From an uncultured Bacteroidales bacterium (lineage in GTDB: Bacteria; Bacteroidota; Bacteroidia; Bacteroidales; UBA932): 64,000 nt of DNA. A model generated the notes under the pieces. The model was given only the letters and a program-made list of their open reading frames with translations. It searched no databases and was not told where the DNA came from. A program made the position numbers and the translations under genes. Below are positions 29,733 through 43,082 of this stretch, piece by piece. How positions within the stretch are numbered: position 1 is the first letter of the stretch; every line of letters starts with the position of its first letter. The stretch is taken from assembly GCA_946187865.1 (NCBI GenBank), contig CAMHST010000001.1, forward strand, positions 44,070 through 108,069, given 5' to 3'.

Positions 29733-31357
<1,625 letters not shown>

Positions 31358-32598: not shown

Positions 32599-32904
32599 AT
32601 GATGGCAAACGAAGTTAAGAATGCAGCAGTAGAATCTGCTGCCCAGACCGCTCAGACCCCGAATTCAAGGGCCAGAATGCCCTTTTCTCCCGGAACGAAA
32701 AAGGGAGCCCGCCTCCGTCCCGTATTTGACTTCCTGATGGACGAAAACGTCTCCCTTTCGGAGCTCGGCCGCCGTGTGGGAATCTCCCGCCAAAGCATGA
32801 GCACCCGCTTCGCCGTGGACGACTGCAAAATGTCCGACATGGAAAAGATGGCCGACGCCCTCGGCTACGATTTCGAGTGGACCTTTAAGAAGAGGCAGCA
32901 GTAG
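32599..32904 (+). CDS. HTH-domain DNA-binding protein
   Basis: A 101-residue protein (or 100 from the second ATG at 32602) with a disordered Ala/Gln/Thr-rich N-terminus and a helix-turn-helix of the Cro/C1 class: SLSELGRRVGISRQSMSTRF followed by MSDMEKMADALGYDFEW. It is probably the regulator of the divergent Toprim gene and itself. Its last 20 bases overlap the 3' end of the convergent coupling-protein gene. Confidence 0.78.
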   Translation: MMANEVKNAAVESAAQTAQTPNSRARMPFSPGTKKGARLRPVFDFLMDENVSLSELGRRVGISRQSMSTRFAVDDCKMSDMEKMADALGYDFEWTFKKRQQ

Positions 32905-34819
32905 CCCCCGGCTCCGGATCCGGCCGGTTGAGTTCCTTTTGCACGAGGTTATAAACCTCGTTGCGGATGCGCTTATAGTTGAGCCGGACCTCCTTCATGA
33001 TTGTTTCTTTTGTTGTATCGACGACCTGCGGGACTTCCTCCTTGTGGGTCGTCTTTCCGTCCGAGATAATCTCCCCGCAGAACACCTTCGGGTGGATCTT
33101 CTGCCGATACTCATCGGCCACGTAGCCGCAGAAGGAGCCTTGCGACAGCGCCTCTATACGGCTGGCCGGGAGCACATCCCGCTGCTGGAAGGATATGGTG
33201 ACGTGTTCGGAGGTGTCGCTCTCCTGATAGGAGCGTGTTTCCTGCTCGAACTTGCCGAACGACTTGGACAGTCCCTCGGCCGTCTCGCCCTTGACAGCAC
33301 CGGCAAAGACGTTCCCCACCGTGTTGAAGATGACGTCCGATTCCTTCTTGTCGTAATCTTTCACCAGCTGGGATTTGTCCTGGGCGCCTAGTACCACAGC
33401 GACCTTATTCTGCCGGGCCGTGTTGATGAGGTGGTCCAGGCCTTTCAGGTAGATGGTGGGCAGTTCGTCAATCAGCACGCCGCAGCGCATCATCCCGGGC
33501 CGGTTGATAATCTTGAAGAGCTGGCTCATCAGCATGGCCAGCGTGGTCCCGTAGACCTGCTGACGGGTGGGATTGTTCCCCACGCAGACAATCTTCGGAT
33601 GCTGCGGGTCGTTGATTTGCAGGGAGAAATCGTCCCCGGAGAGCGTCCAGTACAGGGTTTCGGAGACAAAGCGGTTGAGTGGCACACGGGCCGATGCAAT
33701 CTGGCCCTGCAGCTGCTCGAAGGCCCGGTCCGTTATGGCGTCCTGAAAAGTGTTGCGCTTCACGTCCAGTTCCGGATAGCGCTGCATAATCAGCAGCACG
33801 TGCTTGTAGTTCTGCCCCATCAGCTCGATGAGGTGCGGAAATGTGCAATACTTGCCGCCCTCGTAGATTCGAAGGAACCAGATGAGCATATCCACGTAGC
33901 AACGGGCAGACAGTGAGAAGAAATCATCCCCCTTGTTCGTCTCCTTGCTGGCGTTTTTCATGATTACCTCGGCAATCTCCGTGGCGTCGATGGGGTCCTG
34001 CAGGTAGCGCGGATGGATGGGGTTGAAGCGGTGCGAGTACAGCGGGTCATCAAAGTTCACCACATACATCTCCGGCTTCACGCCCTTGTAGCAGTCGATG
34101 TTGTCCAGCAGCTCGTTCATCACGCGCTGAGTGAGGTCCGGGAACTTGTAGTCATACACAAAGAGCGAATAGCCCTTCTGGATCATCTGCCGGATGTAAG
34201 GGCCATAGACCGAGTGAGTCTTGCCGGAGCCGGGCGTGCCGATGACCATCGTCCCGCGGAAAGGGTTCACCACATTGATGTAGCCCTTGTGCATCTTGCC
34301 TTTATCCTGATACCGCGTGGGGATATTGATGCTGTAGCGGTTTTCAATCAGCCTTTCGCACTGCGGGAAAGTATCGTTTCCCCGGTCCATCGTACCGGCC
34401 TTCATCGCCCTCCAGGCACGGCCCAGGGCGATGGCGCCCATCAGATACAAGGCGAAACCCACCAGTGTCATCAACACGTACAGCAGCCCGGTTCCCGCCG
34501 CACGTCCGCCGAAGAATAGGGCCGCCCCGATGCCGACGGGAAGGGCTACCTCCTGCCACTGCGCCTCCTTGGAACTGCCGCTCCGGACCATCACGGACCA
34601 GGTGCAGAAGAACAGCGCAATCAGCCGCACATCCCACCAGTTCTGCATCACTCCTGCCTTGTAGATGGCCAGCATCAGCGAGTCCGTCAGTCCGGCTGTC
34701 AGGTGCAACTCCGCCCAGAACGGGTAGGCCTCATAGTAAATCATTATCAGTACCAGCGCTCCCGAGAAATATAGGAACGCCGAAAACATGGGTTTAGTTC
34801 TTGAATCCATACGCCTCAA
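32885..34819 (-). CDS. VirD4/TraG-type coupling protein
   Basis: A 644-residue conjugative ATPase that links a relaxosome to a type IV secretion channel. Several membrane segments occupy residues about 10-140, Walker A is VIGTPGSGKTHS, and the Walker B/TraM-recognition region includes GVLIDELPTIYLKGLDHLINTARQNKVAVVLGAQDKSQL. The C-terminus is Pro/Glu-rich. It lies three bases after the relaxase stop, so the two are in one operon. The start could also be Met4 or Met11. Confidence 0.92.
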   Translation of the reverse strand: MRRMDSRTKPMFSAFLYFSGALVLIMIYYEAYPFWAELHLTAGLTDSLMLAIYKAGVMQNWWDVRLIALFFCTWSVMVRSGSSKEAQWQEVALPVGIGAALFFGGRAAGTGLLYVLMTLVGFALYLMGAIALGRAWRAMKAGTMDRGNDTFPQCERLIENRYSINIPTRYQDKGKMHKGYINVVNPFRGTMVIGTPGSGKTHSVYGPYIRQMIQKGYSLFVYDYKFPDLTQRVMNELLDNIDCYKGVKPEMYVVNFDDPLYSHRFNPIHPRYLQDPIDATEIAEVIMKNASKETNKGDDFFSLSARCYVDMLIWFLRIYEGGKYCTFPHLIELMGQNYKHVLLIMQRYPELDVKRNTFQDAITDRAFEQLQGQIASARVPLNRFVSETLYWTLSGDDFSLQINDPQHPKIVCVGNNPTRQQVYGTTLAMLMSQLFKIINRPGMMRCGVLIDELPTIYLKGLDHLINTARQNKVAVVLGAQDKSQLVKDYDKKESDVIFNTVGNVFAGAVKGETAEGLSKSFGKFEQETRSYQESDTSEHVTISFQQRDVLPASRIEALSQGSFCGYVADEYRQKIHPKVFCGEIISDGKTTHKEEVPQVVDTTKETIMKEVRLNYKRIRNEVYNLVQKELNRPDPEPGATAASS

Positions 34820-34822
34820 TCT

Positions 34823-36004
34823 TTATCTGTGTCTTCCCCTTCTCATGATCTCCTCATCCTCGTGACGGCGGCTCCGTTCCGCCGCCATCGCAGCCACCAG
34901 CGATTCGGCCGCCTCTTCTGCTGCCGTTTTCTGCCGGGGCTCCTCCCAGACTTTCCACTCCCGGTCCTCCGGAGGCCACTTGGTCATCCGGGCTTCCTCG
35001 AACTGACCGGCGGTGATGCCCTTCAACTCGCTGGACTTGAACACGCAGCGGGTCTGATGGTCGATGAAAGTAACGCCGAAAATCTTCCCCTCCTTGGTGC
35101 GGGAAAAGACAATCCCGATGTTCTTTTTCCGAAGAATCCGCCGCGTATGCAGCTCGGAAGTGCCATTTTTCAAGGCTATGCGGGCCAGGTTGGCCACGCG
35201 CTGCTTCTCCTTGTCACGTTTCTCTTTCTTGCAATCTTCAATGTGCTTGCGGATTTCTTCCATCGCAGGTACGTTCAGGTCTTTTTCCGGGATGGGCGCC
35301 GTACATTTGCGCCCGGTCTTGGGGTCAACGCCATAGTAAACCAGCATCGGCTTGCGCCGTATCATCTGCTCTTCCACAACTACGCCGAACTGCTTCATCA
35401 GCATCTTATACTGCTCGCCGGTGGTGAAATGGTACTTCATGGCCAGCTCCACAAGCGCTTCTATCTGCTTCATATAGTCGCCCTTCTCAGGGTCGAAACG
35501 CGGATAATCCACCCGCTCATCCTTCGGCCCTTTGTCCTTCTTCTCCTTCTTTTCTCCCTTGCCGATGGTGAAGCCGTACTTCGGGGCCAGCTCCTTCATC
35601 AGCTCCTGGCAGCGTCGGTGCTCCTGATGGTCGGGAATCTTCCGGCCGTCCTTGTCCACGCGCACGGATACGATATGGTAGTGCTCGCGGCCGATGTCGT
35701 TGTGCCGGTAGATGATGAAGGGCTGGTTGCCATAACCGAGGCCCTCCATCATTTCCCGAGCAAAGCTGACAATCTGTTCCTGGCTCATCCCGTCCGTCAC
35801 CGACGGATTGATGGACATGTGAAAGGACATCTTCTCGCACCGGCGGCTGCCGCGTTCATACCGCTCGAAAGTCTCAAGCGGTTTCTCCGGGTTATCGAGA
35901 CCCTGGGAACAGACCACGGCAGCCTTGCCCTCTTCCACTTTCCTCTCATTGTACTGGAGGCTGGTGGAACAGTGCGGTGTGGGTGCGTTGATTTTCACTA
36001 CCAT
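34823..36004 (-). CDS. Relaxase/mobilization nuclease (MobB-like, MOBP type)
   Basis: A 393-residue relaxase that nicks oriT and carries the strand into the recipient. The N-terminal domain has the three-histidine metal motif in YRHNDIGREHYHIVSVRVD and the upstream segment MSFHMSINPSVTDGMS; a probable catalytic Tyr lies near the N-terminus (YNERKVEEGKA). The C-terminal part is Lys/Arg/Glu-rich and helical. It sits between ssb and the coupling protein on the same strand. Confidence 0.9.
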   Translation of the reverse strand: MVVKINAPTPHCSTSLQYNERKVEEGKAAVVCSQGLDNPEKPLETFERYERGSRRCEKMSFHMSINPSVTDGMSQEQIVSFAREMMEGLGYGNQPFIIYRHNDIGREHYHIVSVRVDKDGRKIPDHQEHRRCQELMKELAPKYGFTIGKGEKKEKKDKGPKDERVDYPRFDPEKGDYMKQIEALVELAMKYHFTTGEQYKMLMKQFGVVVEEQMIRRKPMLVYYGVDPKTGRKCTAPIPEKDLNVPAMEEIRKHIEDCKKEKRDKEKQRVANLARIALKNGTSELHTRRILRKKNIGIVFSRTKEGKIFGVTFIDHQTRCVFKSSELKGITAGQFEEARMTKWPPEDREWKVWEEPRQKTAAEEAAESLVAAMAAERSRRHEDEEIMRRGRHR

Positions 36005-36372: not shown

Positions 36373-36825
36373 TTATACATAGGAGGACTCATCATCCTCA
36401 CTTTCTTTCTCATCTCCTTCTTCACCGGCGCAGCCGGTCACCTCCTCCCGGATGACCGAAAAGGTCCTGACCATTTCGGTCATCATCTCCTTCATCTCGG
36501 TCATGTCGTGCTCGATGTCCCGCGCATTGATAATGACGTTCCCGTGCCTGTCGCGCACGAGCGCAAGGCGGTTGAGCGTCTTTACGCGCTGGTTGTAGTT
36601 CACGCCGATGCGCTTGAGATCCAGGCGGAGCAGCTCGATCTGCTTCGCCACGTTTGCCTCATTCAGACTAAGGTTCCTGCGCTTGCGGACGCGCGTAGAA
36701 AGCAGCGCGTCACGGATGTACCTTGAACGGTTGTTATACCCGGAAAGATGCATCTGGGTATTCAGCTTCTCGAACTCTTTCTCCGAGAAACGCACATTGA
36801 CATAGTGTTTTCTAATCTCTCTCAC
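36373..36825 (-). CDS. MobC-type relaxosome accessory protein (ribbon-helix-helix)
   Basis: About 150 residues if translation starts at the GTG at 36825 (VREIRKHYVNVRFSEKEFEKLN), which is where homology-like sequence begins. The following strand and helices (FSEKEFEKLNTQMHLSGYNNRSRYIRDALL) are typical of the relaxosome protein that helps the relaxase at oriT; the C-terminus is acidic and low-complexity. The track ORF extends 73 more residues upstream through a folded GC-rich block that does not look like protein. First gene of the mob operon. Confidence 0.82.
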   Translation of the reverse strand: MREIRKHYVNVRFSEKEFEKLNTQMHLSGYNNRSRYIRDALLSTRVRKRRNLSLNEANVAKQIELLRLDLKRIGVNYNQRVKTLNRLALVRDRHGNVIINARDIEHDMTEMKEMMTEMVRTFSVIREEVTGCAGEEGDEKESEDDESSYV

Positions 36826-36866
36826 AATACCAAACTCTACATTAAACACTGTCTCCACTGCCCAGA

Positions 36867-36996
36867 CGGGCCGTAGGCCCGAAAGCAGGCGACTTCGGAG
36901 CCTGCTGTGCCCGCCGTAGGCGCACGAGATGGCCCCGTAGGGGTCTGCGTTCGTGACACGAAAGCCCATCTCGCAATCTGGACTAACGCCCAGATT
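36867..36996 (-). other. Folded block upstream of mob genes: candidate oriT or structured leader
   Basis: Seven inverted repeats are packed into 130 bases: CGGGCC-GTA-GGCCCG (36867-36881), GCAGGC/GCCTGC (36885-36905), GCC-GTA-GGC (36913-36921), an 8-bp stem CGAGATGG/CCATCTCG (36925-36932 with 36966-36973) enclosing CCCC-GTA-GGGG and TTCGT-GAC-ACGAA, and AATCTGG/CCAGATT (36975-36996). The enclosed pair makes a three-way junction. It lies directly upstream of the mob operon, where an origin of transfer or a leader RNA would be expected. Confidence 0.65.
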
Positions 36997-37058
36997 CACC
37001 GCTCCTTTATAAGTCGCGCTGCAAACATAGGCATTTTGTGGCAAATTGACAAATACTA

Positions 37059-37636: not shown

Positions 37637-38200
37637 ATGAAAAGTACAATTAACGAGGACAACAAATGGAAGGTGCTCCACTCCGAGTATCTGATACAGC
37701 GCCCGTGGCTGACGGTGCGCAAGGATGAGGTGCAACTTCCGGATGGTCGCATCAATCCTGAGTACTATATCTTTGAGTGCCGCGATGGTGTGAACATTAT
37801 TGCCATCACAAAGACCGGCGAAATCATCCTGGAACGCCAGTACCGGCACGGCCTGGGCAAGACTTGCTACGAGCTACCCTGTGGTGTAGTGGAAGATGGT
37901 GAAACGCCGCTGCAGGCCGCCAAGCGCGAACTTCTGGAGGAAACCGGATACTCCGGAGGCATGTGGCAGGAACTGATGACCATTTCTCCCAACGTGGGCA
38001 CTCACAATAATCTGGTGCATTGTTTCCTCGCCCGGGATGTCGAGAAGGTTGCCGACCAGAGACTGGACCCTACCGAAGACATCAAAATCTCCCTTCACAG
38101 CGAATCCTATGTGCGTGAACTGCTGGTCGATAACCAGATTATGCACGGGCAGATGGTCGCCTCGTTGTGGAAATTCTTCTATCAGCTGGATAAGAAATAG
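37637..38200 (+). CDS. NUDIX hydrolase (ADP-sugar-pyrophosphatase-like)
   Basis: A 187-residue NUDIX enzyme with a complete box GVVEDGETPLQAAKRELLEETGY (Gly, Arg-Glu and Glu-Glu residues in place) and an N-terminal strand region typical of ADP-ribose/ADP-sugar pyrophosphatases (VNIIAITKTGEIILERQYRHG). It hydrolyses a nucleoside diphosphate linked to another group; substrate unknown. Its presence among transfer genes is unusual. A 142-bp folded repeat starts four bases after its stop. Confidence 0.9.
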   Translation: MKSTINEDNKWKVLHSEYLIQRPWLTVRKDEVQLPDGRINPEYYIFECRDGVNIIAITKTGEIILERQYRHGLGKTCYELPCGVVEDGETPLQAAKRELLEETGYSGGMWQELMTISPNVGTHNNLVHCFLARDVEKVADQRLDPTEDIKISLHSESYVRELLVDNQIMHGQMVASLWKFFYQLDKK

Positions 38201-38203
38201 GAT

Positions 38204-38345
38204 AGCCGGTCAGGCGGGCTTGCCCGACTGACGGGCGGAAAGAGGCGCGGCGGTGGAACAGTCTCTGACGGGCTTGCCCCGGCAGAGTCTGTGGAGCCGT
38301 GAGACTTTCGCGGCGGCTTCGCCGACGTGAAGGTCTCAAGCGCCG
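38204..38345. repeat. Folded direct repeat, copy 1
   Basis: Copy 1 of a 141-142 bp repeat. Hairpins: GTCAG-CGGGC/GCCCG-CTGAC; ACAG-CTCTG-CGGG pairing with CCCG-CAGAG-CTGT, extended by CGGC/GCCG; and GAGAC...GTCTC, the last two enclosed by GGCGC/GCGCC. It follows the NUDIX stop directly and is about 95% identical to copy 2. Confidence 0.88.
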
Positions 38346-38457: not shown

Positions 38458-38766
38458 ATGAAACCGAGGAAAGGAAAGAAACTGCGGATTACGGAGGCCG
38501 ACTATATGTTGGCCCAGCGCAGGGCGGCTCGGATGGAAGAGATTGCCGAGCACGGGAGGCCGGTTTCATACTCGGCGTTCCACAAATCCAAAAAGGTCTA
38601 TGACCGCAAGCGTTTGAAGAGGACGGGCATCAATCTCGATGACTCGTTCTCTTTTCGTGCTTGGGAGAGCCGGTCAGGCGGGTTTACCCGACTGACGGGC
38701 GGTAATAGGCGCGGCGGTGGAACAGTCTCTGACGGGCTTGCCCCGGCAGAGTCTGTGGAGCCGTGA
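38458..38766 (+). CDS. Small conserved mobile-element protein with repeat-derived C-terminus
   Basis: A 102-residue ORF. The first 70 residues (KKLRITEADYMLAQRRAARMEEIAEHG, HKSKKVYDRKRLKRTGINLDD) match a small basic protein I recall from many Bacteroidales mobile elements, of unknown function. From about residue 71 the frame enters copy 2 of the folded repeat and encodes a Gly/Arg-rich tail that looks accidental. The natural stop was probably lost when the repeat arrived. Confidence 0.68.
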   Translation: MKPRKGKKLRITEADYMLAQRRAARMEEIAEHGRPVSYSAFHKSKKVYDRKRLKRTGINLDDSFSFRAWESRSGGFTRLTGGNRRGGGTVSDGLAPAESVEP

Positions 38767-38808
38767 GACTTTCGCGGCGGCTCCGCCGACGTAAAGGTCT
38801 CAAGCGCC
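38668..38808. repeat. Folded direct repeat, copy 2
   Basis: Same order of hairpins as copy 1. Of the few differences, two are symmetric (the innermost C/G of the first palindrome becomes T/A), two fall in a linker and one in a loop. It overlaps the 3' end of the small ORF at 38458. Confidence 0.88.
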
Positions 38809-38881: not shown

Positions 38882-39044
38882 GACACGGCGGGACGTTCTT
38901 TTGCTAATGGCCAGAGCAGGCCCTGTTCCGCTGTGATGCCTTTCGGGCATGGTCGGAGTCCTTTTTCACGCGGGGCTCCGGTTTCGTTTGTGCTCCGGGC
39001 GGAAGCACAATTATAAACCCTCACTATGCTGTAGCGAGGGTTTT
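38882..39044 (+). ncRNA. Candidate small RNA downstream of an orphan promoter
   Basis: A transcript from the 38868 promoter would run about 160 nt through GGCC/GGCC, ATGCC-TTTC-GGCAT and GTGCT/AGCAC hairpins to a terminator-like stem at 39017-39041 followed by TTTT. Only a 26-codon ORF (MPFGHGRSPFSRG...) lies within it. An RNA product, a leader peptide, or only an untranslated radC 3' region are all possible. Confidence 0.4.
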
Positions 39045-39045
39045 G
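39017..39045. terminator. Terminator-like hairpin at the radC 3' end
   Basis: ACCCTC-CTA/TAG-GAGGGT with one internal mismatch; TTTT follows on the plus strand and TTTATAAT on the minus strand, so it can stop transcription both ways. The radC stop codon lies inside the stem. Confidence 0.65.
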
Positions 39046-39620
39046 AGGATGGTTTCGTTATATTTGGCTTTATGCTCCTCCTGGAAGGAATAGTAAGAGG
39101 AATCGGAGATGATGATGTGGTCGAAGAGGTGTAGTTCTACTGCTGCACAGGCTTTCTCAAGAGTCTTGGTCGCCAGAACATCTGCCTTGCTGGGCATGGG
39201 ATCACCCGTGGGATGGTTGTGGGAAATGATGATGCCGTGGGCGCCGAGGAGTAATGCATGACGGAGAATCTGCTTGTTGTCAATGGTAGTCTGGGTAAAG
39301 CCACCCTTGGAAATCTGCATCCGCTTGATGATGGTGTTCTTGCGGGAGAGATAAAGAATCCAGCACTCTTCATGGTCCAGTCCCTTCATGACGGGCAGCA
39401 GGTAGAAACTGGCCAGGTCGGCATTCTTGATTTGCACGTTCGTACTAACCGGTATGGAAACCATGTATTCGGAAATGGCTTCTCTCAGGACACCGATTCT
39501 GTCCAGCTGTTCATTAGAGAAACCTTCCAGATAACCGGCGCCGCTGGCAAGGATAAGGTCGGATACATTCCAGTCTTCGCGGAGTTCAAGCCCCAGCTTG
39601 TTGAGTTCTTCACATCTCAT
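39024..39620 (-). CDS. RadC-like JAB/MPN-domain protein
   Basis: About 198 residues from the ATG at 39620, which overlaps the stop of the preceding small gene. The C-terminal JAB domain has the metal motif SHNHPTGDPMPSKAD with an upstream Glu region (LDHEECWILYL). RadC-type JAB proteins are frequent on Bacteroidales mobile elements and are probably nucleases or isopeptidases; the old DNA-repair label is not well supported. Residues before about 70 lack the usual helix-hairpin-helix part. Confidence 0.85.
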   Translation of the reverse strand: MRCEELNKLGLELREDWNVSDLILASGAGYLEGFSNEQLDRIGVLREAISEYMVSIPVSTNVQIKNADLASFYLLPVMKGLDHEECWILYLSRKNTIIKRMQISKGGFTQTTIDNKQILRHALLLGAHGIIISHNHPTGDPMPSKADVLATKTLEKACAAVELHLFDHIIISDSSYYSFQEEHKAKYNETILKTLATA

Positions 39621-39780
39621 AAGGCAGCAAGTTAAGGGTTGAACCATTGACACTGACCAACGTGAGCCCCAGTTCATCAATCAGGTTCCGGAGCTCGGAT
39701 TTCATGGATGCACTCATCCTGGATGCCATCTCCTGAAGCATCTGCTTCTTTGTGAGATTTCTTTGTTCTGAAAGTTTCAT
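39610..39780 (-). CDS. Small helical protein coupled to radC
   Basis: A 56-residue ORF from the ATG at 39780 (MKLSEQRNLTKKQMLQEMAS), rich in Met, Lys and Leu and likely helical. It overlaps the radC start by 11 bases, the usual sign of translational coupling. No family recognised. Confidence 0.55.
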   Translation of the reverse strand: MKLSEQRNLTKKQMLQEMASRMSASMKSELRNLIDELGLTLVSVNGSTLNLLPYEM

Positions 39781-39823
39781 AATACAATCAATTAGAGGGT
39801 TTAACGAATTATGGAGCGCTGGC

Positions 39824-39952
39824 AATCAATGCGGTTTGAGATGCAAGGTTTTTGTCGAAAATACTACCCCGCAGGGGTGGAGATTTTCGGCAAAAGGCCG
39901 CAGGCCCCTGACCTTGCAGCTCAAAGACGGCCTCCGGCCGTCAGCATTGATT
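39824..39952. other. 129-base multibranch folded element beside the iterons
   Basis: Nested pairing: AATCAATGC (39824-39832) with GCATTGATT (39944-39952); TTTGAG (39835) with CTCAAA (39920); TGCAAGGT (39842) with ACCTTGCA (39911); inside that, CGAAAAT/ATTTTCG (39856/39883) capped by ACCCC-GCA-GGGGT, and GGCC-GCA-GGCC (39896-39906); and ACGGCC-TCC-GGCCGT (39927-39941) next to the outer stem. Nearly every base is in a stem. No coding sequence covers it. It could be an RNA, a single-strand initiation site or part of an origin. Confidence 0.75.
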
Positions 39953-40004
39953 ATTTATGCGGAGGAATTCGATAAACCCTCTGATTGATGGAGGCAACGA
40001 AGAA

Positions 40005-40130
40005 AAAGTATTCAAAACTTAGGAACGGCTCCGAGAGTTACTCAATTCTTAGGAGAAAAGTATTCAATCCTTAGGAGGAAAGTATTCAAAACTTAGGAAA
40101 CCGAGGCTGAAAAGTATTCAAAACTTAGGA
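40005..40130 (+). repeat. oriV: Five iterons: probable replication origin
   Basis: Five direct copies of AAAGTATTCAAAACTTAGGA start at 40005, 40035 (degenerate), 40057, 40079 and 40111. Spacings of 30, 22, 22 and 32 bases are close to whole helical turns, as for initiator-binding sites on one face of DNA. The Rep_3-type initiator gene is 1.2 kb away, beyond an insertion element. The rest of 39781-40323 holds the folded element above and AT-rich DNA with no gene. Confidence 0.85.
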
Positions 40131-40220
40131 AACCGGCCCCGTTTCACACCTTCCAATCATCAAATATACAACGAATTAACAACGCCCGAAAAGCGCCGTA
40201 CAAATTGAATCATTACAAGT

Positions 40221-41273
40221 ATAAATAAATATATGACTAACAAATGTTTTACCTAAAATAGACCTTGCGCCTCGTCTTGGCACAATCAGGCACTACTTTC
40301 GTACCATCAAACGACGATATACGATGAACCTGATTGATTTCACCAAGGAGTTTCCGAACGATGAAGCCTGCGAGCGCAAGTTGAAAGAGTACCGAATAAG
40401 GGAGGGCGTGGTCTGCCCCAAGTGCGGATGCGTCCACCATTACTGGAAGAATGACAAGAAATGCTTCGAGTGCAAACAGTGCCACTACCGGCAGAGCCTT
40501 ACGGCCAATACCGTGATGCACGGGAGCCAGCTCCCGCTGCTGTACTGGTTCACGGCCATTCATCTGCTCACGTCCACGAAGAAGAGTTTCTCCGCGGCGG
40601 AGCTTCAGCGGCAGCTCGGCCACAAGAACTATATGCCAATCTGGGCGATGCTTCATAAACTGAGGATAGCGATGGGCAAACGGGACGAACGGTACACACT
40701 CAAGAACATGGTGGAACTCGACGAAGGGTTCTTCACGACGGAAGTGCCTGACGATGAGAAGGGAAAGCCTCTCAAGAAAGGCCGTGGCAGCCAGCGGAAG
40801 ACGAAGGTCCTGGTGATGGCCGAGACCGTGGAGGGCAACCCGACGAAGAAAAGCCACAAGCACACGGCCGTCAAGCACATCAAGATGATCGTCATCGACG
40901 ACCTCTCGTCCGAGACCATCGACGGCAAAGTAAAAGACAATATTGAATCAAGCTCAACCATCATCAGTGATCATTCCACGTCATACGCCAACTTCAAGTC
41001 CATCGTGGCCAGCCACCGTCCCCAGGTCATCCCGAAGGATCAGGTCGGCCAGATCCTGCCCTGGGTCCACATCGCCATCAGCAACGCCAAACGCCTCTTC
41101 CTGGATGTCTACCATGACATCTGCCCCGGCTACATCCAGAACTACCTCAGCGAGTTCTGCTGGAAGTTCAACCGCCGGACGATGGGCAATGAGATGTTCG
41201 ACAGGCTCGTCGTGGCAGGACTGGGCTATAAAAACTCGTTTAGGTATAACATTTAGTATTCATAAATAAATAT
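40221..41273 (+). mobile_element. IS1595-family insertion sequence
   Basis: The transposase gene is bracketed by imperfect inverted repeats (GACTAACAAATGTTTTACCTAAA near 40235 and, inverted, GAATACTAAATGTTATACCTAAA near 41240-41261). The 12-bp direct repeat ATAAATAAATAT flanks both sides (40221-40232 and 41262-41273), which contains the target duplication. The element seems intact and separates the iterons from rep. Confidence 0.85.
40324..41256 (+). CDS. IS1595-family transposase
   Basis: A 310-residue DDE transposase. An N-terminal zinc ribbon (CPKCGCVHHYW...CFECKQCHY) is followed by the catalytic domain with acidic residues in VELDEGFF and ISDHSTSY and the segment HIAISNAKRLFLDVYHDI with YLSEFCWKFNRR near the end, all typical of the ISXO2-like/IS1595 group. 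The ORF is uninterrupted, so the copy may be active. Confidence 0.95.
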   Translation: MNLIDFTKEFPNDEACERKLKEYRIREGVVCPKCGCVHHYWKNDKKCFECKQCHYRQSLTANTVMHGSQLPLLYWFTAIHLLTSTKKSFSAAELQRQLGHKNYMPIWAMLHKLRIAMGKRDERYTLKNMVELDEGFFTTEVPDDEKGKPLKKGRGSQRKTKVLVMAETVEGNPTKKSHKHTAVKHIKMIVIDDLSSETIDGKVKDNIESSSTIISDHSTSYANFKSIVASHRPQVIPKDQVGQILPWVHIAISNAKRLFLDVYHDICPGYIQNYLSEFCWKFNRRTMGNEMFDRLVVAGLGYKNSFRYNI

Positions 41274-41353: not shown

Positions 41354-42382
41354 TCAGATGTCCGAATAGCGCAACAGCCAGTCGGAATACCAGGCCAGCA
41401 TGGCGGCGTGAACGTAGGCGTCCACATTGGAAATACCCCGGCGGATGCGAATGTCGGCTGTGAGACTGGCCAGTTTGTCCGTGAACGAATGCAGATCCTC
41501 GAAATCCAATTGTTTCCAGATGTCGGCAATGGCCTGTGCATGCCCTCCTGCGGCATTCATCAGCAAACGACACGCATCCCAGGCCTCCTGCGTCGCCTTG
41601 TTTCTGGTCTCTTCATCTACCTGATAGCCAATCTTAAAGCAGATGTACTGACGGTCGGAGCGAAGCAGCAGTCGGAAATCGAACCAGATGGGATAATGCT
41701 CCCGCAAATCGGCGGCTGACGGTTTCAGGATGTGCGTTACGATATTGTCCGAACGGTCATAGGACGGCCCGAGCGTAAGCATCCGCCGAAGTTCGTCAAT
41801 ACTTAGGACAAAACCGCCGCGATTACGCCAGGAGCAGACCAACCAGTAGAGCCGGACGGTGTATTTGTTGGCCATTGAAAGTGCCGCCTGGCAGGAATAG
41901 GCGGTGTAGCCCTCTTCCACCAGAAGCAAGCGGGCCACCATTTGCTCCTGCAGGAAGATTTCAACGTCGTGGCCGTAAGCCGGAAATCGGAACCCCTCTA
42001 TGAATCCTGTGAAATGATTCTTCTGCTCGCTGTCCGGAAAACGGATGGCGGTATGCTCCAACTCCCGAAGGCAAGCACGGAGCCTGGCGCCATTTTTCTC
42101 CCCAATGTGAAAAGCCTGCGCCGGGATGGTCAACACCCGATATCCACGGTCATTCTTCGGCGGCAGGAAAACTTCCGGCACACCCTTCCTTTCATTGCCT
42201 CGCGTCAGGCGCAATCTTATTGCTCGCTGGAGCTCCGAAATGATGGCCATCAGGATGCGAAGGTGATTCAATTTTAAATCGGCTTCTATGTACGTGATTC
42301 CGTTGACATGAAGCAGCTCATCCTTGCGCTGAGGTGCGTCAGGACGTCTTTTTGTGCTTGGAGATGTCAACTTTTTTCTCAC
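41354..42382 (-). CDS. Rep_3-family plasmid replication initiator
   Basis: About 342 residues. The N-terminal winged-helix region (NHLRILMAIISELQRAIRLRL), ALSMANKYTVRLYWLVCSW and FVLSIDELRRMLTLG fit Rep_3 initiators that bind iterons. The track start (42604) runs into the next gene; I prefer GTG at 42382 because a clear promoter (TTTG-N20-TACTTTTG) predicts a start point near 42397. A later ATG (MAIISEL) would cut the first domain. It should act at the five iterons at 40005-40130. Confidence 0.8.
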   Translation of the reverse strand: MRKKLTSPSTKRRPDAPQRKDELLHVNGITYIEADLKLNHLRILMAIISELQRAIRLRLTRGNERKGVPEVFLPPKNDRGYRVLTIPAQAFHIGEKNGARLRACLRELEHTAIRFPDSEQKNHFTGFIEGFRFPAYGHDVEIFLQEQMVARLLLVEEGYTAYSCQAALSMANKYTVRLYWLVCSWRNRGGFVLSIDELRRMLTLGPSYDRSDNIVTHILKPSAADLREHYPIWFDFRLLLRSDRQYICFKIGYQVDEETRNKATQEAWDACRLLMNAAGGHAQAIADIWKQLDFEDLHSFTDKLASLTADIRIRRGISNVDAYVHAAMLAWYSDWLLRYSDI

Positions 42383-42403
42383 AAAGTAAGCCGGTTTTTG
42401 TCT

Positions 42404-42435
42404 CAAAAGTATCTGAAATATTTTGAAAGAACAAA
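42404..42435 (-). promoter_or_regulatory. Promoter of rep
   Basis: On the minus strand TTTG (42435-42432), exactly 20 nt, TACTTTTG (42411-42404). It predicts transcription from about 42397 and so a short leader before GTG 42382. A TATTTGACAA box lies just upstream (42462-42453). Confidence 0.82.
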
Positions 42436-42506
42436 TTTTTGCCTTTCCTTTGTTGTCAAATAGCGTATGACAATGCAAGACTAAATGCGTCAAACCAAAA
42501 CGAGAA

Positions 42507-43082
42507 ATGACAAAAAGGCATTCAATAAGCAAATCATTCGGAACCATCCTCACCGGATTGTTCCTCATCCTCTCGTGTACCTCAGCCTCGGCCCAGCGAA
42601 CCATCTCTGGCCAATCTACCCTCGCAATCTCTGCGCACTATACCGGCACGTCCGTGGGGGCCGAGGCTTTCTATTCGCAATATACCCTTGGCGGTTTCTG
42701 GGAGTCCGGCATCATGGTATCCCCCTACCGTTACGGGCTTTCCACAAACCATATTCTGGACGACTGGCACATTTCTGCCGCCGGGGCCTACCTTTGGAGA
42801 CTCGCCGCCACTCGCAGCCGCAGTTTCAATTGGTACGCAGGCGCAGGCGTATTCGCGGGTATAGAATGGTTGGACCCGTTCGGGCACCTGCCTGATTACA
42901 TCGATCTGGGAACAGCCAATATCCGTTTCCTGTATGGCGTCTATGCAATGACCAGCCTGGAAATCTTCCTCTCTTCCAGGTTCGCCCTTCTGGTCCAGGG
43001 CGCCCTTCCTGTCAACTTCTCTTCCTATGCCGGGAACATCCACTGGCAGGCGGGACTTGGGATCAAATTCATGCTCAACTAA
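42507..43082 (+). CDS. TraO-like outer-membrane protein of conjugative elements
   Basis: A 191-residue protein with a signal peptide ending ASAQR, then amphipathic strands with a Gly-rich pattern (WYAGAGVFAGIEWLDPFGHLPDYIDL, FLSSRFALLVQGALPVNF) and a C-terminal GLGIKFMLN. Length, the AQR cleavage region and the strand pattern resemble TraO of Bacteroides conjugative transposons as I remember them, but I cannot align it. If right, it is the only secretion-channel-type component in the window. Confidence 0.5.
   Translation: MTKRHSISKSFGTILTGLFLILSCTSASAQRTISGQSTLAISAHYTGTSVGAEAFYSQYTLGGFWESGIMVSPYRYGLSTNHILDDWHISAAGAYLWRLAATRSRSFNWYAGAGVFAGIEWLDPFGHLPDYIDLGTANIRFLYGVYAMTSLEIFLSSRFALLVQGALPVNFSSYAGNIHWQAGLGIKFMLN

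Follow-up and report, generated by a model that had tools for sequence, protein, structure and literature searches.

What is the function of a nearly fully paired DNA segment that no gene covers and that lies beside the iterons of a replication origin? Such a segment occupies positions 39824 to 39952 of the 64,000-nucleotide (nt) stretch of Bacteroidales DNA analysed here (hereafter referred to as the window). The original prediction proposed it as a functional RNA, a single-strand initiation or priming site, or an origin component. Here we report that the segment is part of a larger hairpin, which represents an apparently undescribed family that is widespread in gut and rumen Bacteroidota. 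We consider it most likely that this hairpin is an Frpo-like single-stranded DNA (ssDNA) promoter on the conjugatively transferred strand, without sequence kinship to Frpo.

Single-stranded promoters, Frpo1/Frpo2 of plasmid F and those of ColIb-P9, were reportedly described by Masai and Arai in 1997 and by Nasim in 2004. Hairpins of this kind rebuild promoter boxes in ssDNA, drive early leading-gene expression from it, and precede genes for SSB and anti-restriction proteins (PMC9849209; PMC11541004). As far as the searched literature extends, ssDNA promoters are documented mainly for enterobacterial plasmids, and a search combining Bacteroides with 'single-stranded DNA promoter', with preprints and most subscription papers outside its scope, returned no paper. 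We know of no description of the Bacteroidota hairpins. Many gut and rumen conjugative elements reside in Bacteroidia, and a family of such promoters there would explain how anti-restriction genes are expressed before the elements become double-stranded. It would also supply a DNA signature by which metagenomes could be searched for transferred strands and establishment regions, and it flags uncharacterized first genes (DUF6943 and small open reading frames (ORFs)) as candidate anti-defence factors.

Structure of the hairpin

The fold described for positions 39824 to 39952 was reproduced, with its nested stems and three 3-nt loops (GCA, GCA and TCC). As RNA, this 129-nt segment has a minimum free energy of −70.2 kcal/mol (z −8.4 against shuffled sequences) and, as DNA, it folds at −47.0 (z −10.7); none of 200 shuffles matched its fold strength, and its complement is weaker (−61.2, z −6.3). 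The original prediction had, however, overlooked the base of the hairpin. Outer arms at positions 39787 to 39810 and 39966 to 39989 are 92% complementary, and the full unit is therefore a single hairpin of 203 nt (positions 39787 to 39989, with the plus strand as the folding strand), of which the segment first noticed forms the upper two thirds. This complete hairpin, supported by its outer arms, kept pairs and compensatory changes, is the proposed ssDNA promoter. As DNA it folds at −65.6, about 5 s.d. below the window mean for 203-nt stretches (−30.4, s.d. 6.9), and the 216-nt stretch that encloses it (positions 39781 to 39996) folds at −105.7 (z −9.1). The fold is real, with z scores of −8 to −11, and larger than first described.

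No credible gene lies in the hairpin, as had been stated; the only overlapping ORF encodes 78 amino acids from a GTG start. Positions 39860 to 39885 of the plus strand form the family apex, AATACTACC-CCGCAGGG-GTGGAGATT, with a conserved T–G wobble, which was identified by the apex pattern and the covariance model described below; the model (R1) matches the window at positions 39848 to 39897 (E 2.4e-9).

Genetic context in the window

The hairpin sits in a mobile element adjoining tRNA-Met. The window contains no att repeat of the tRNA-Met 3′ end, and the far boundary of the element was not found. The same element carries genes for a large serine recombinase (29765 to 31357), a coupling protein (32885 to 34819), a primase-like protein and a NUDIX protein. 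The relaxase gene (34823 to 36004; Pfam Relaxase, 3.4e-26) is located 5′ of the hairpin and is encoded on the opposite (minus) strand, as is a MobC-like relaxosome gene (36373 to 37044), upstream of which inverted repeats (including I8 and I15) and direct repeats delineate a candidate oriT region (37031/37045 to 37297). At the foot of the hairpin is the ATG of a 56-amino acid ORF (39610 to 39780, minus strand), the first in the predicted transcript, followed by a RadC/JAB-domain gene (39024 to 39680, minus strand; Pfam RadC, 7.9e-36) as the second. The 56-amino acid ORF has no Pfam match, and its start codon is found in homologues too. Two 145-nt direct repeats (38200 to 38344 and 38664 to 38808), which are 95% identical, flank a 102-amino acid ORF (38458 to 38766). 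Both fold strongly (the first copy with a DNA z of −6.75); they are the only two copies in the genome, with one similar repeat in L042, and the pair with its ORF looks cassette-like.

The five iterons, which had been placed about 50 bases away, begin 53 nt downstream of the 39824 to 39952 segment and occupy positions 40005 to 40135 of the plus strand. They mark a neighbouring replication origin, a separate module, which an IS1595-type transposase gene (40324 to 41256) splits from the gene for its Rep_3 initiator (41354 to 42604, minus strand; Pfam Rep3_N and Rep3_C). Among the element genes examined there is no rolling-circle Rep, Rep_3 with iterons being found instead. The suggestion that the hairpin is an origin component found no support: iterons accompany it only in the closest relatives (L037, L038, L041 and L042), two or more iterons were found at none of the other fetched loci, whereas many unrelated elements have the hairpin next to leading-region genes.

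A hairpin family in Bacteroidia

Distant matches have in common the apex AATACTACC-loop-GTGGAGATT. A pattern search for this apex yielded 33 occurrences in 27 of 300 genomes of the same family (reversed control, 0), matches in 9 of 297 genomes across the phylum, all of them of the class of the window (one control match), and 79 stretches of IMG/VR, in which the copies are partly related to one another. A copy was kept if at least 45 pairs enclosed the apex; IMG/VR chance matches below this threshold (for example, L125, L131, L150, L151 and L185) were dropped, and after the removal of chance matches and duplicates 83 distinct copies remain. The invariance of the apex letters in this set is partly imposed, because the search required them, and the letters vary slightly in model-found copies such as L248.

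A covariance-model search, as the original prediction had recommended, used the apex plus ten flanking pairs and detected the family in 24 of 346 Bacteroidia genomes, representing 20 of 186 genera, and in none of 32 genomes from other classes of the phylum; so far the family is seen only in Bacteroidia. Copies are also present in plasmid records of Bacteroides ovatus, B. fragilis, B. finegoldii and Parabacteroides distasonis. BLAST searches against plasmids gave matches for a Bacteroidaceae-type copy and none for the window hairpin. No Rfam family scored above its gathering threshold; the original prediction likewise knew of no named family with this layout.

Some copies, including L243, L247, L251 and L252, have apical loops of about 26–65 nt, and the loop of L251 contains a reversed copy (GTAGTATTT) of part of the apex. 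Two hairpins per element, from a few hundred bases to several kilobases apart, were observed in L186 (on the L017 contig), L188, L191, L198, L143 and L223, and in the annotated L223 each of them precedes its own gene. L200, at the same place as L014, is an apparent chimaera when compared with L018/L199 and L015/L191: the 5′ arm comes from one hairpin type and the 3′ part from another, with the junction at the apex that the two share, as if neighbouring hairpins had recombined and deleted the intervening DNA.

Covariation of the two arms

Near relatives in rumen Bacteroidales retain the window hairpin. Across five sequences, 98.5% of the cells of an 80-pair structure are paired, and 10 pairs, mostly in the outer stem, have changed on both sides; when the partner is slid by 1–3 columns, the compensatory pairs drop to 0–2. 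Loss of pairing without compensation, which had been named as evidence against the element, was looked for in these homologues and not seen. When 52 diverse copies were aligned, 84.9% of the cells were paired versus 72.7% in shuffles, with 137 compensatory cells versus 49.5 ± 6.3 in shuffles and at most 75 in slid versions. An alignment-free test, in which position −i is paired with +i from the fixed apex and arms swapped between copies serve as the control, gave 274 Watson–Crick pairs versus 146 ± 8.7 expected, and the 5′ arm pairs best with the 3′ arm of its own hairpin in 47 of 53 cases. RNAalifold on a plain MAFFT alignment recovered just 5 apical pairs because stem lengths vary, and the anchored and permutation tests were used instead.

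Promoter boxes in the folded strand

The 3′ arm has the layout GACCTTG(C), about 20 nt, then TAnnTTTG(C). The promoter consensus of Bacteroidota comprises TTTG at −33 and TAnnTTTG at −7 (PMC7366714), and, by sequence comparison, the 3′-arm boxes correspond to this consensus in most copies. Of 84 copies, 66 have TAnnTTTG in the 3′ arm and none has it on the minus strand of the 5′ arm; the later model-found copies carry TAnnTT[TC]G in 17 of 21 3′ arms versus 0 of 21. A CTTG-type box lies 17–23 nt (effective spacing) upstream of the −7 box in 63 of the 67 copies scored. In the folded DNA, a conserved mismatch bubble is located at the −7 box: the pairing probability is 0.35–0.48 just before and including its TA, and about 0.8–0.96 for the TTTGC that follows.

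In the window, the −33 box CCTTG (39912 to 39916, plus strand), which is conserved in the family, pairs with CAAGG on the 5′ arm (39844 to 39848). The −7 box TATTTATG (39952 to 39959, plus strand) lies in mismatched internal loops and is one base off the consensus; in the homologues L037, L039, L040 and L041 it reads TATTTTTG. Between the two boxes is a side hairpin, GACGGCC-TCC-GGCCGTC (39926 to 39942, plus strand), that is present in all four close homologues aligned and measures 17 nt in the window family (16 nt in some members). The linear spacing of the boxes is 35 nt in the window and 34–35 nt in its family, and extrusion of the side hairpin shortens it to 18 nt in the window, L037, L039 and L040. 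As the spacing enters the range of the whole family only after extrusion, we interpret the promoter as one that forms only when the strand is folded.

Strand choice and adjacent genes

With DNA parameters, the hairpin strand folds more stably than its complement in 79 of 84 copies, with RNA parameters the complement folds worse in 75 of 84, and replacement of the apex by a symmetric one leaves the hairpin strand better in 77 of 84 (p 5e-16). The selected molecule thus appears to be the hairpin strand as ssDNA, rather than the leader RNA of the adjacent genes. The nearest gene lies on the 5′ side and reads away from the hairpin in 60 of 79 cases, and in 19 of 22 out of sample; in 19 of the 79 the nearest 5′-side ORF is on the other strand, which counts against this arrangement, the ORF calls being simple and crude. 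On the 3′ side, 55 of 80 genes lie on the opposite strand, and most have their ends turned towards the hairpin. The direction of the boxes, along the 3′ arm, leads away from the nearest gene and can be reconciled with the direction of that gene only if the template is the 5′ arm of the same strand.

First genes behind the hairpin (n = 73) include those encoding RadC (11), SSB (11), ArdA (4) and ArdC (2), and they are followed by genes for RadC, PcfK, ArdC, DUF932, PcfJ and MobC. A B. ovatus plasmid has one copy ahead of ardA and a second ahead of the radC-like gene. Out of sample (n = 17), the first genes gave 10 matches to DUF6943 (9 distinct genes), 2 to SSB and 1 to PcfK. DUF6943 (PF22105), which comes first behind the hairpin in L230, L233, L240, L243, L245, L247, L248, L251, L253 and L254, is a candidate establishment or anti-defence protein.

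The relaxase gene is on the 5′ side and the opposite strand in 13 of 14 contigs that have relaxase and hairpin within 40 kb, several of these contigs being close relatives and the transferred strand being judged from gene orientation. This arrangement fits a transferred strand that carries the relaxase gene in last. The exception, G628:C25:11375 (L209), has its relaxase on the 3′ side and the same strand, and could reflect a rearrangement or belong to a different element. Where a full tra operon is present, the relaxase gene lies 16–38 kb from the hairpin; with the relaxase gene tens of kilobases away in CTnDOT-like elements, strict placement in the leading region is only putative there.

Proposed mechanism and alternatives

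We infer that RNA polymerase transcribes from ssDNA and that the hairpin strand is the transferred one. On entering the recipient single-stranded, this strand would fold into the hairpin, and the stem would rebuild a Bacteroidota promoter with the 3′ arm (−33 CTTG, −7 TAnnTTTG) as the non-template strand. The bubble would partly pre-melt the −7 box, where host RNA polymerase would initiate and, copying the 5′ arm, proceed to the stem base, there to leave the hairpin and enter the establishment genes on the complementary strand (in the window, the 56-amino acid ORF and radC). Anti-restriction, RadC and SSB genes would in this way be switched on while the conjugating element enters a new cell. 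Completion of the second strand would abolish the hairpin and shut the promoter off, and the hairpin RNA could additionally prime second-strand synthesis.

The original suggestion of a single-strand initiation or priming site came close to this mechanism as regards initiation on ssDNA; in place of bare priming, a promoter for transcription is indicated. That the hairpin recruits RNA polymerase or primase merely to prime second-strand synthesis, as an ssi or sso site, is unlikely. Such a site would have the same ssDNA hairpin design, the window copy adjoins a replication origin, and Frpo has been called both a promoter and a primer site, to judge from a title cited in PMC11541004. However, priming needs no placement upstream of outward-reading establishment and anti-restriction genes, and the elements with two copies, including L223 with a gene behind each, also speak against it. 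An ordinary double-stranded promoter directed towards the 3′ side, with the hairpin as upstream regulatory decoration, would account for boxes that read 3′-ward in the duplex and fit the Bacteroidota consensus. We regard it as very improbable, given that the 3′-side genes are mostly on the other strand and the linear spacing in the window family is too long, and it leaves the extensive compensatory pairing without explanation.

The functional RNA of the original prediction likewise fits poorly: the best-folding strand has a promoter in its own 3′ arm and differs from the transcript strand of the adjacent gene. Despite the strong RNA fold, there is little chance that the hairpin is a structured RNA, either a leader or attenuator of radC, ssb and ardA transcripts or an independent noncoding RNA. 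The leader would be the complementary strand, which generally folds worse and loses the conserved T–G wobble, an RNA started rightward by the embedded promoter would omit most of the hairpin, and Rfam offers no match. A folded recombination site, attC-like or an integrase target, would suit a hairpin within a mobile element, and the −7 box resembles the CTnDOT integration core (GTANNTTTGC). This reading is nevertheless extremely improbable, as the copies lie inside elements and ahead of operons, the −33 box and the spacing are conserved, and no site-specific junctions were seen at the copies.

Beyond the ssDNA promoter itself, we give roughly even odds to a broader proposal, in which Bacteroidota ssDNA promoters evolved independently of Frpo, the conserved apex is a dedicated recognition site, and an establishment programme is shared across elements. 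The apex would then be recognized by the alpha or sigma subunit of RNA polymerase, a primase or an element-encoded protein, single-strandedness would trigger the programme, and first genes such as DUF6943 would encode undescribed establishment or anti-defence factors.

Comparison with known systems

In the sso of rolling-circle plasmids, an ssDNA hairpin is used by RNA polymerase for priming. The Bacteroidota hairpins resemble sso in being hairpins on ssDNA, but their placement tracks establishment-gene operons. They also recall the leading-region anti-defence islands (Samuel et al. 2024, PMC11541004) in SSB and anti-restriction content and in the orientation of the genes to an ssDNA promoter; the main text of that paper has no mention of Bacteroid* or RadC.

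The closest likeness is to Frpo of plasmid F and the promoters of ColIb-P9, which are long ssDNA hairpins before ssb and anti-restriction genes on the complementary strand. The Bacteroidota family has the corresponding features: one strand forms a long stable hairpin, better than its complement (79/84), boxes rebuilt in the stem read towards its base (66/84 versus 0/84), and ssb or anti-restriction genes lie directly downstream on the complementary strand. A 330-nt segment upstream of ssb in plasmid F folds at −94.4 in the Frpo orientation and at −84.7 on the other strand. A −35/−10 scan of the F Frpo region allowing up to three mismatches found no match, and F therefore serves as a control for geometry only. 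No sequence similarity to Frpo or ssi was detected, the best match of model R1 in the F leading region scoring 17.4 bits (E 0.8). The family belongs to a different phylum, uses −33 CTTG and −7 TAnnTTTG where Frpo has −35/−10 boxes, and carries the AATACTACC/GTGGAGATT apex, which is absent from F; unlike Frpo, the window family also has a side hairpin between the boxes. Given these differences in sequence, promoter type, apex and side hairpin, the Bacteroidota hairpins are best regarded as functionally Frpo-like rather than as members of the Frpo sequence family.
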